The notes below the pieces were generated by a model that searched no databases, had not been told where the DNA came from, and saw only the letters and a list, made by a program, of their open reading frames with translations. A stretch of 64,000 nucleotides of DNA from Bryobacteraceae bacterium (GTDB lineage: Bacteria > Acidobacteriota > Terriglobia > Bryobacterales > Bryobacteraceae). Location: contig JANWVO010000058.1 of assembly GCA_025056865.1 (NCBI GenBank), positions 1 to 64,000 of the forward strand, in the 5' to 3' direction. The translations under genes and the position numbers were made by a program. Numbering within the stretch: position 1 is the stretch's first letter; each line of letters starts with the position of its first letter. Positions 9,911-35,776 of this stretch are shown here, piece after piece.

Positions 9911-11167
9911 TCAGGAGCGCAGCATGGGCTGGGAGACCGCGTGCGCCCTGGGTCTCCTTTGCAGGCCGAGAGCCGCCAGGAATGCAGCCGCCGCTCTTCT
10001 CTCGCCGACGCGTTCCCACGTTTCAGGGGCAGGGAGTTTGCCCGCGGTCCGCAGCAGAGAGACGACCAGATCCCTGACCGCCTCGCAGTACCCGGAGTGA
10101 TCCGGCACCAGATAATGTTGCGGAATGGCGCGCTGGAGTTCGCCGAAGCAGTTCGGAAGGCAGGCGGCCAGCTTCAGCCCGGTCAGCCGCTCCGCCTGCC
10201 CGGCGGGGGTGGAAAAGCGCGCAGAATTCCGGTTCAACACCAGCCGTACGCCCGGAAGGACGCCCGCGTCCTCCATGAGAGTGCGGGCGAGATTGGCCTG
10301 CGTGAGAGACAAATAATCACTGCCTGCCACGCAGTAAATCATGTCCGAGGCCTGCATGGTCTCCACCGAGAACCGCTCCCAATTTCCGGAATGGTCTGCC
10401 ACTACCAGGGCGTAAGTGCCGCGCACGGACTGTAGAAAATTGGCGAAAAGCCCGGAATCAATCCTGACGGCGCGGCACCGCCGCAAAGCGGCAAAGATAT
10501 GCACGCGGCCGAATTTCGGGATGTGAGTCGGCTCCGGGAGCCTTCCCGTGTGGTCCACGACCGAAATCACGTCGAACAGGTTCATGCCCGTCTGCGCCGC
10601 GCCGAACAGGCTTTGCACCCCGCAGTTCAGGTCGAGGTCGAGCAGCGCCACATCGGCCTGGAGAATTCCGGAGGCGATGTTGGCGAAGTGCCAGGCCAGC
10701 GTGCTGGCGCCGCTGCCCGGCTTGGCCGGCAGGAAGCTGGCCATCGGCGCGACGACGGCCGGCGGCGGCAGCGGCTCGGCGGCGCGTTGATAGAGGCTTT
10801 CCAGCATGTTCTTCACCTGCTCGGTGGTCGAGGGCAGGTGCAGGAGCCTGTCGGCCAGTCCCATGCGGTGCAGCTCGAGGTGCGCGTGGTTGTCCAGGCG
10901 GCGCGTGAAAATCAGCACCGGCAGCAGCGGCTCGGCCTTTTTCAGCGGCTCGAGCACTTCGGCGAGTTCATGGAAACCGCGCACCTCGACAAGGACGACA
11001 AAGGGCCGGCCATTTTTCAGGGAACGCAGGAACAGCGGCAGCCAGTCTTCGGCAAGGGTGTCGACGATTTCGATGTCATGGAAGGGGTGGCTTCTGGCCA
11101 GGAGATCCCGGACCTCGCTAGCCGCTTCGAGGTCCCTTGCCAGCACGACGATCCGGTCGGAAAACAC
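9911..11167 (-). CDS. CpaE/TadZ-like ATPase (MinD/ParA superfamily), orphan
   Basis: 418 aa in two parts. Residues 1-120 form a receiver-like alpha/beta domain (DRIVVLARDLEAASEVRDLL, RPFVVLVEVRGF, PLLPVLIFTRR) as in CpaE. After a Pro-rich linker comes a MinD/ParA-type ATPase with a deviant Walker A (FLPAKPGSGASTLAWHFA), LLDLDLNCG and YALVVADHS. CpaE/TadZ proteins localise Flp/Tad pilus assembly, but no other tad/cpa gene is in the window, so its partner system is unknown. The GTG start at 11167 has GGAGG 7 bases upstream. It is third in a minus-strand series after uspA and the small UGA-containing ORF. Confidence 0.75.
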   Translation of the reverse strand: MFSDRIVVLARDLEAASEVRDLLARSHPFHDIEIVDTLAEDWLPLFLRSLKNGRPFVVLVEVRGFHELAEVLEPLKKAEPLLPVLIFTRRLDNHAHLELHRMGLADRLLHLPSTTEQVKNMLESLYQRAAEPLPPPAVVAPMASFLPAKPGSGASTLAWHFANIASGILQADVALLDLDLNCGVQSLFGAAQTGMNLFDVISVVDHTGRLPEPTHIPKFGRVHIFAALRRCRAVRIDSGLFANFLQSVRGTYALVVADHSGNWERFSVETMQASDMIYCVAGSDYLSLTQANLARTLMEDAGVLPGVRLVLNRNSARFSTPAGQAERLTGLKLAACLPNCFGELQRAIPQHYLVPDHSGYCEAVRDLVVSLLRTAGKLPAPETWERVGERRAAAAFLAALGLQRRPRAHAVSQPMLRS

Positions 11168-11273: not shown

Positions 11274-11453
11274 TCAATTTTCCTGCCGGGAAGATCGGTC
11301 GGACACCTGATCTTCCTCCGGCCGGGCGGGACGCCGGAACCCGACGTCGCAGGAGCTGCTCAGTCAGGTGGGCACGCCGAGCCGGGGCAGAACCCACTTC
11401 ATCAGGGCGATGTAAGCGCCCGCCACGAGCAGTGTTGTCAGCCAGTCTGTCAT
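11274..11453 (-). CDS. Candidate small membrane selenoprotein (in-frame UGA read as Sec30)
   Basis: Read from the ATG at 11453, six bases after the uspA stop, this frame gives 29 residues: a single transmembrane helix (WLTTLLVAGAYIALMKWVLP, 4-23) ending in RLGVPT. TGA (11366-11364) follows, then LSSSC and a polar tail to a second TGA, 59 residues in all. The pattern U-x4-C right after a helix would suit a membrane-edge redox pair. A hairpin begins 16 bases after the TGA with a loop starting in G, matching the general layout of bacterial SECIS elements. The selenocysteine synthase gene selA is present at 34421-35776. Without readthrough the product is a 29-residue peptide. No family was identified; Sec insertion is an inference. 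Confidence 0.5.
11330..11348 (-). promoter_or_regulatory. SECIS-like hairpin downstream of the in-frame UGA
   Basis: GACGTCGG (11348-11341) pairs with CCGGCGTC (11337-11330) in eight consecutive pairs, one of them U-G, around a GUU loop. The stem starts 15 bases after the UGA and the loop G is base 24 after it. Bacterial SECIS elements typically place a small stem-loop with a G at the start of the apical loop at about this distance. In a GC-rich genome such a hairpin can arise by chance. Confidence 0.4.
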
Positions 11454-11459
11454 CAGCGC

Positions 11460-11924
11460 CTACCGCGGGCAGATCGTCTTGTCGGGCGGGATCGCCAGCA
11501 CAGGCACCTTGGCCTGCTCGATCGTGCGGGTGGTGACCGATCCCAGCCAGACGCTGCGCCAGCCGGTGCGCCCGTGCGTGCCCATCACGACCCAGGCATT
11601 GGCCCGGTGCGCGGCGGCGATGATCGCCTCCACGGGTGGCGCGTCGGAAATCTCGTAGTGCACCTCGATGCCTTCCGGCAGGTGGGGCCTTGCCCACTCT
11701 TTCAGGTGCGCCTCGGCGTGCCTGCGCACCTCGTTCCATTCCTCCAGGATGCGCTCCCGCCGCTCCGGCGTGATGTAGGAGGGCGTGTCCACATGCACCG
11801 CGTGCAGCAGACGGAGCGGCTTGCCCGAAGCCTGAGCGAGCCAGGCCGCCCAACGCAGGGCGTTGGCAGAACACTCGCTGAAGTCTATGGGGCACACCAC
11901 CGATTCAAAGGGGGGCGGAATCAT
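11460..11924 (-). CDS. Universal stress protein (UspA family)
   Basis: Single-domain UspA-fold protein, 154 aa from the ATG at 11924. It starts with the strand FESVVCPIDFSECSANALRWA and ends with the nucleotide-binding signature GTHGRTGWRSVWLGSVTTRTI (G-2x-G-9x-G-S/T), so it should bind ATP; the last strand is VPVLAIPP. Such proteins are stress-linked and cytoplasmic. An upstream ATG would add 11 residues, but GGAGG about 10 bases before the ATG at 11924 favours the shorter form. The small UGA-containing membrane ORF starts six bases after its stop and is probably translationally coupled. Confidence 0.85.
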   Translation of the reverse strand: MIPPPFESVVCPIDFSECSANALRWAAWLAQASGKPLRLLHAVHVDTPSYITPERRERILEEWNEVRRHAEAHLKEWARPHLPEGIEVHYEISDAPPVEAIIAAAHRANAWVVMGTHGRTGWRSVWLGSVTTRTIEQAKVPVLAIPPDKTICPR

Positions 11925-12052
11925 CTCCTCGGTGCCTCCACCTCGAAGATGCACCAAAGGACCGCCCGTGACAAGGGTTCTGTCGGAAGGAACCGGCCGG
12001 GGCAGCGCCTGCCGGCAGGCTCCGCTGGTTCCCTGCCGCCCGCGGTGGCATC

Positions 12053-34420: not shown

Positions 34421-35776
34421 ATGGATCCGCTTCGCGCGAAAAACCAGCTCCGCTCGCTGCCCGGCGTCGACGAGCTTGCCCGCAGCATCGCGCTGCCGCT
34501 GCCGCACGGGCTGGTGGTGGCGGAGGCCCGCGCCGTGCTCGAGGAGTGCCGCGAGCGGATCCGCCGCGGAGAGACGCTGGCGGAAGAGCCCCGCGAGGCG
34601 CTCGAGCGCCGGCTGCGCGGCCTGCTGGCGCCCTCGCTGCGGCGGGTGATCAACGCCACGGGCGTCATTCTGCACACGAATCTGGGCCGCGCCCCGCTGC
34701 CCGCCTTCCCTCCCCCGCAGGGCTACTCGAATCTCGAATACGATCTCGACACGGGACGGCGCGGCCGGCGCGACGTGCACGCGGCTCCGCTGCTCGAGCG
34801 CCTGCTTGGCGCGCCGGGCATCGTCGTCAACAACAACGCTGCCGCCGTTTTCCTTGCCCTGCACGAGCTGGCCGCCGGGGGCGAAGTGATTGTCAGCCGC
34901 GGCGAGCTGATCGAGATCGGCGACGGCTTCCGCATCCCTGAGATCATGCAGCGCAGCGGCGCGCGGCTCGTCGAGGTGGGCACCACCAACCGCACGCGCA
35001 TCGAAGACTACCGCCACGCCATCACGTCCGAGACCCGGCTGCTGCTGCGCGTGCATCCGTCGAATTTCGTCATCCACGGCTTCGCCGGACGGCCCTCGAT
35101 CGAAGAGCTCTGCGCGCTGGGACGCGAGCGCGGCATCCCGGTGTACGAGGACCTCGGCAGCGGATGCCTGGCCGACCTGTCTCCTTACGGCGTCCACGAG
35201 CCGCTGCCGCAGGCAAGCCTGCGCGCCGGCGCAAGCCTCGTCTCGTTTTCCGGCGACAAGCTGCTGGGCGGGCCGCAGGCGGGAATCCTGGCGGGCAGGC
35301 CGGAGATCGTCCAGCGGCTGCGGCGGAATCCGATGTTCCGCGCCCTGCGCGTGGACAAGCTGGTCTATTCGGCGCTGGAGACGACGCTGCGCCTGACGCT
35401 GCTCGAGCGGTGGGACGAGATCCCCGTGCTGCGCATGGTCCGGCTGTCTCCGGAGGAGATCGCCGCCCGCGCGCGCCAGATGGCCGGGGAAATCAACGGC
35501 GCGGGCCTGGGCGTCCATGCCGATGTCATCCGCGGCGAATCGCTGCTCGGCGGCGGATCGACGCCGGGCCAGTCGCTGCCCACGTATCTGTTGGCGATTG
35601 CCCCGCAGGCCTCGGCGCTGGAACGCAGCCTGCGCGCGGGGGAGCCGCCGGTGATCGCGCGCATCGACGAGGACCGGCTGCTCGTCGACCTGCGCACCGT
35701 GGATCCGGCCGATGACGCAGCGCTGCTCCAGGCGGTGCTGCGCGCCTGCGGTTCGCTATCTCCATCCGCCCGTTAG
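34421..35776 (+). CDS. selA: L-seryl-tRNA(Sec) selenium transferase
   Basis: PLP enzyme that converts seryl-tRNA(Sec) to selenocysteyl-tRNA(Sec) using selenophosphate. 451 aa, close to the bacterial norm of about 460. N-terminal domain: LRSLPGVDELARS. Core: VINATGVILHTNLGRAPLP, VNNNAAAVFLALHELAAGG and VEVGTTNRTRIEDY. PLP lysine K280 is in SFSGDKLLGGPQAGI. The presence of a full-length SelA means the cell can make selenocysteine. selB, selD and tRNA-Sec are not in the window. The gene follows the PIG-L gene after 68 bases. Confidence 0.93.
   Translation: MDPLRAKNQLRSLPGVDELARSIALPLPHGLVVAEARAVLEECRERIRRGETLAEEPREALERRLRGLLAPSLRRVINATGVILHTNLGRAPLPAFPPPQGYSNLEYDLDTGRRGRRDVHAAPLLERLLGAPGIVVNNNAAAVFLALHELAAGGEVIVSRGELIEIGDGFRIPEIMQRSGARLVEVGTTNRTRIEDYRHAITSETRLLLRVHPSNFVIHGFAGRPSIEELCALGRERGIPVYEDLGSGCLADLSPYGVHEPLPQASLRAGASLVSFSGDKLLGGPQAGILAGRPEIVQRLRRNPMFRALRVDKLVYSALETTLRLTLLERWDEIPVLRMVRLSPEEIAARARQMAGEINGAGLGVHADVIRGESLLGGGSTPGQSLPTYLLAIAPQASALERSLRAGEPPVIARIDEDRLLVDLRTVDPADDAALLQAVLRACGSLSPSAR

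Follow-up and report, generated by a model that had tools for sequence, protein, structure and literature searches.

Results

A small gene with an in-frame UGA adjacent to uspA

We analysed a stretch of 64,000 nucleotides (the window) of the Bryobacteraceae bacterium contig JANWVO010000058.1 (assembly GCA_025056865.1), in which an earlier note had proposed a candidate new small membrane selenoprotein. The gene was located on the minus strand, which the note had left unstated, and the frame of 59 codons, with a single hydrophobic segment followed by LGVPT-UGA-LSSSC and a polar tail, was confirmed in all its parts (Table 1). The predicted protein is MTDWLTTLLVAGAYIALMKWVLPRLGVPT-U-LSSSCDVGFRRPARPEEDQVSDRSSRQEN. 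Exactly six bases separate the end of uspA (11460) from the ATG, as described previously, and the uspA assignment was verified by the PF00582 match. The Cys five residues past the UGA was likewise found (U30 to C35), giving the spacing UxxxxC.

The window genome contains selA, selB, tRNA-Sec and selD, so that Sec can be made, as the note had suggested from selA in the window; it had named a lack of selB and tRNA-Sec as an argument against Sec, and both are present. The selD gene of this genome (G000:C47:5348-6253, locus L296) holds one in-frame TGA, and SelD is therefore probably a selenoprotein itself.

Table 1. Features of the window related to the predicted small selenoprotein gene
Feature	Position	Strand	Remarks
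Predicted small membrane selenoprotein gene	11274..11453	minus	59 codons including the internal UGA, codon 30, predicted to be read as Sec; ATG 11453-11451, stop UGA 11276-11274
Single predicted membrane helix	11388..11444	minus	about residues 4-22; the tail behind it is Lys/Arg-rich
In-frame UGA, predicted Sec codon (U30)	11364..11366	minus	11366-11364, within LGVPT-U; Cys in two selB-less relatives
Cys35 codon, putative partner of Sec30	11349..11351	minus	at least 90% conserved in the A1 alignment
Predicted SECIS hairpin GACGUCGG-GUU-CCGGCGUC	11330..11348	minus	starts 15 nt past the UGA; apical loop 23 nt past the UGA
uspA	11460..11957	minus	directly upstream; PF00582, E 2.4e-26; pairing kept in relatives
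selA (Sec synthase)	34646..35701	plus	PF03841, E 3.1e-123; separate operon from the small selenoprotein gene
Downstream gene	9911-11167	minus	weak CpaE/Ssd-like similarity, TIGR03815, E 3.8e-7, below cut-off

The uspA gene remains the neighbour in the clade of the window genome (69-93% identity across eight related loci by tblastn). A Pfam match was absent for the CpaE/Ssd-like downstream gene (9911-11167), which stays beside the selenoprotein gene across the genus.

Distribution and conservation of the family

The 59-residue protein, with UGA translated as Cys, was searched against 396 genomes of the phylum of the window genome. Matches were detected in 80 genomes, nearly all with exactly one internal TGA, and share a common plan: the N-terminus is short and acidic, a single helix comes next, then (V/I)LP(R/K)xG(V/I)xT-U, usually (M/L)-S-x-(S/A)-C, and a tail of charged residues. 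We scanned 84,980 genomes of bacteria and archaea with a degenerate DNA pattern containing TGA, and the same small protein is encoded by 118 of 118 stretches among the matches listed. The record titles of these listed matches represent more than 10 phyla; the groups among them include Geobacteraceae and other delta-proteobacterial groups, Planctomycetes (including Kuenenia), KSB1, Spirochaetes, Zixibacteria, Cyanobacteria, Armatimonadota, Anaerolineales, Krumholzibacteriota, Verrucomicrobia, Myxococcales, and others.

In the A1 alignment of 54 sequences, P23, G26, T29, and U30 are invariant, and L22 and C35 are conserved at 90% or above. The A1 profile has Cys at the Sec site and is thus blind to UGA. 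It matched 97 of the 396 genomes of the phylum of the window genome (about a quarter, a few of the matches being false), about 115 of 297 genomes of the phylum of Desulfocicer vacuolatum (about 40%; 124 rows, some of them weak) and 45 of the 120 genomes of an order sample. We left out the matches in seven genomes (G120, G294, G266, G351, G388, G094, and G163), which we considered spurious or doubtful. UGA-blind profile searches thus place the family in hundreds of genomes, with UGA at the site in nearly all members; no homologue was found in the plasmids searched. The reading frame is far beyond chance, since every listed pattern match encodes the same protein and profiles that do not see the UGA recover hundreds of members.

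Conservation continues past the UGA, the absence of which the note had listed against its proposal: in addition to C35 in A1, a Cys lies 5-7 residues past U in 133 of 153 members. The redox Sec/Cys pair itself remains putative, because a second Cys is absent from approximately 13% of members (about one in eight). In a subgroup (G373, G107, G362, G355, G326, and G374 type) TU-A-V-P-x-P replaces TU-M-S-x-S-C and the nearby Cys is absent; the chemistry of these proteins may differ from that of the Cys-bearing members. One genome has two copies of the gene (G029:C8 and G029:C24; L104 and L264).

The 54 members had no significant match in Pfam or NCBIfam, and a match among PDB sequences was not found, in accordance with the claim that no known family matches.

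Co-occurrence with selB and the Cys forms

In the phylum sample, selB above the curated cut-off was detected in 87 of 92 UGA carriers vs 167 of 304 non-carriers (Fisher p 3e-14), and it was present in 21 of 22 carriers from other groups, which cover many phyla. The order sample contained 43 UGA carriers, 41 of them with selB, and two Cys carriers, neither with selB (p 0.006). The expected restriction of homologues to genomes with selA/selB is therefore followed by most UGA carriers and not by seven (G055, G118, G127, G242, G373, G780, and G811), all draft assemblies, in which selB was not detected.

Cys is the sole sense codon that we observed at the UGA site, and the Cys versions that the note had suggested looking for do exist, in two genomes. 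G187 encodes ...GIGTCMSGAC... with TGT and G727 encodes ...GIPTCMSNSC... with TGC; both genomes are 99% complete and without selB. Among about 240 members detected by searches that did not require UGA, these are the only 2 Cys forms (approximately 1 in 100).

The predicted SECIS hairpin

In the published model of bacterial SECIS elements, a small apical loop lies 16-37 nt from the UGA and has a G close to its start (PMC13188914), and the window hairpin GACGUCGG-GUU-CCGGCGUC fits this model as a predicted structure. Across 186 unselected members the mean stem energy is -8.5 kcal/mol vs -4.05 in shuffles, the hairpin loop starts most often 23 nt past the UGA, and GG or GU stands at the loop start in 89% vs 23% of shuffles. 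In the main register the seven inner pairs form in 50-72% of these 186 members, with mostly lower values in neighbouring registers.

Covariation was scored in 58 ungapped sequences picked to share one hairpin register, which makes the test optimistic: 85% of cells pair, double changes occur at all seven pairs, and the score is 0.651 vs 0.242 for shuffles and 0.07-0.20 for slid positions. In the order sample, the UGA loci inspected keep a hairpin at 20-23 nt, and the register is lost in both Cys forms (G187 and G727). The 62-nt segment past the UGA of the window, folded alone, gave z -0.12, so the single-sequence fold is no evidence and the hairpin stands out solely by comparison. The Rfam gathering search of the window at 10-40 kb gave zero matches.

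Gene neighbourhood

We surveyed the neighbours of 194 loci for seven families: YgaP-like TM, DUF302, rhodanese, thioredoxin, ArsR, RND, and MFP. Their density is 54.6 per 100 kb in the nearest 500 bp vs 1.9 at 4.5-6.9 kb, an approximately 29-fold difference in which near matches are somewhat favoured, the HMMs having been built from clusters within 5 kb of the loci. The close module neighbours are on the same strand in 95% of cases. DUF302 matches are confined to within 500 bp of the selenoprotein gene, and YgaP-like TM genes are close neighbours at about 40 loci, often directly adjoining or overlapping by a few bases. Pfam scans of the direct neighbours agreed with the seven families and added TauE, OsmC, and C_GCAxxG_C_C. 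At least one module gene lies on the same strand within 1.5 kb at 81 of 194 loci, and none at 113. The window copy has uspA and the CpaE-like gene as its neighbours and no sulfur genes. The ArsR genes beside the family (for instance, in G141, G243, and G251) have a common C-terminal LCxxVC pair.

Topology and gene fusions

The mean number of Lys/Arg residues in 153 members is 0.18 before the helix vs 4.5 in the 28 residues from the LP motif on, and by the positive-inside rule the C-terminal, Sec-bearing side is probably cytosolic.

In L177 (537-1067) the selenoprotein frame continues into a complete thioredoxin domain with WCAPC, and the Cys past U is absent. This replacement of the missing Cys by a thioredoxin fusion suggests thioredoxin as the resolving partner of the Sec intermediate. 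In L192 (2799-4194) the frame runs stop-free into a protein most similar to type III sulfide:quinone reductase (SQR), below the model cut-off; L192 may be two genes, the SQR-like one starting at an internal Met. A gene related to this SQR-like protein was observed at L231, 159 bp downstream.

Discussion

We detected a large family of small genes in which Sec insertion at UGA 30 is strongly supported by comparative data; the proposal of a new small membrane selenoprotein is favoured by the conservation of the UGA, the predicted hairpin, the link to selB and the Cys forms. The presence of Sec at the site appears nearly certain, established as far as sequence allows. UGA readthrough as Trp occurs in bacteria, and near-cognate readthrough that inserts Trp or Cys instead of Sec could be considered; however, Trp was not observed there, Cys was the only replacement by a sense codon and was confined to genomes lacking selB, and tRNA-Sec, selB and the SECIS covariation are present, which makes this explanation very improbable. 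An ordinary stop is the least probable explanation of all. Gene callers would end the frame at the UGA, a free 29-residue single-helix membrane peptide is possible, and the hairpin could then be regulatory or a terminator, but residues and the Cys are conserved past the UGA, the frame runs through Cys in two selB-less genomes and runs in-frame past the UGA into thioredoxin in the fusion, the hairpin has the SelB-type GU/GG loop, and the family co-occurs with selB.

The family shares with known bacterial selenoproteins the in-frame UGA, a SECIS with a small G-containing apical loop, selB dependence and Cys homologues (PMC13188914). It differs from their usual pattern in that almost all members have Sec and very few have Cys. 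A 2026 review describes 119 bacterial selenoprotein families and subfamilies (PMC13188914), and the UxxxxC-after-membrane-helix architecture is absent from its table of these 119. The motif strings of the family were not found in the literature searched, which is mostly open-access; a prior description elsewhere is possible. The family would have been overlooked so far because Cys homologues are rare (2 among about 240), which would defeat Cys-based searches. Selenoproteins that lack Cys homologues may escape the deep-Sep method, and that study concluded that all known ones have such homologues (PMC12013277).

Among known small membrane proteins, the family resembles YgaP-like TM (PF11127, DUF2892, including E. 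coli YgaP), a small inner-membrane protein ending near an LG(V/I)-type motif. YgaP-like TM proteins are linked to rhodanese and ArsR-type regulators (PMC9774250), as is the neighbourhood of our family. The YgaP-like neighbours differ, however, in being longer two-helix proteins with a conserved CP and no Sec. Membership in PF11127 was considered and rejected: none of the 54 members matched it at E 1, and the profile comparison aligned 15 columns at 58.7% probability, which is not convincing. The eukaryotic SELENOK and SELENOS are small single-pass membrane proteins with Sec in an exposed tail that act at the endoplasmic reticulum, and they are comparable as analogues only.

The neighbouring genes (YgaP-like, rhodanese, DUF302, thioredoxin) and the thioredoxin fusion lead us to infer a role in sulfane-sulfur/thiol redox. 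The E. coli rhodanese gene ygaP shares a transcript with ygaV, which encodes a sulfide-responsive ArsR-type regulator (PMC9774250). The protein would be a single-pass inner-membrane selenoprotein, with Sec inserted at UGA 30 by SelB, tRNA-Sec, and the hairpin 15 nt downstream. The helix would serve as the membrane anchor, and the positive-inside rule would place Sec in the motif LG(V/I)xT-U-(M/L)-S-x-(S/A)-C at the cytosolic membrane face. The substrate attacked by the selenol at the membrane would be sulfur or an oxidised thiol; the likeliest candidates are sulfane sulfur/persulfide and protein disulfides, passed on by the rhodanese and YgaP-like partners. Cys35 would then form a selenenyl sulfide, which thioredoxin would reduce, as the neighbours and the thioredoxin fusion suggest. 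The pairing with uspA in the clade of the window genome suggests expression under stress. We estimate the probability of this whole explanation, Sec identity and sulfur/thiol redox function together, at roughly 0.6.

Two other functions were weighed. The selenoprotein could belong to an efflux or resistance module under ArsR control, reducing or binding metal(loid)s, organometals or electrophiles at the membrane for the adjacent RND pump. RND genes lie on the same strand within 1.5 kb at 20 loci, with MFP and ArsR near; RND and ArsR would also fit the export of metal(loid)s or toxicants, and tributyltin derepressed ygaVP in E. coli (PMC9774250). RND and MFP are, however, farther off than the directly adjoining YgaP-like TM, DUF302, rhodanese, and thioredoxin genes, the sole clear fusion is to thioredoxin, and L192 runs into an SQR-like protein; we consider this function unlikely. 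Slightly less likely again is a general role in membrane redox stress, by lipid peroxide or quinone/disulfide reduction, with the sulfur genes merely common neighbours. It would agree with uspA as the kept neighbour in the clade of the window genome and with the 113 of 194 loci without a close module gene, but not with the neighbour enrichment and shared strand, which recur in unrelated phyla.

Returning to the sulfane-sulfur/thiol redox role, we give about even odds to the broader proposal that this is among the most widespread selenoprotein families of bacteria, almost Sec-obligatory and overlooked as tiny and nearly without Cys homologues, and that it supplies the membrane selenol for sulfane-sulfur/thiol redox reactions in a module with a YgaP-like protein, rhodanese, DUF302, and thioredoxin. 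Since the family is present in roughly one in four of the genomes sampled from the window genome's phylum and about 40% of those from the Desulfocicer phylum, selenoproteome counts, and with them the models of why bacteria keep Sec, would need revision. The Cys/UGA homology criterion of current tools has a blind spot and fails on tiny, almost Sec-only proteins. Taken together, the family would connect selenium with sulfane-sulfur/thiol redox chemistry at the bacterial membrane in a concrete way that can be tested.
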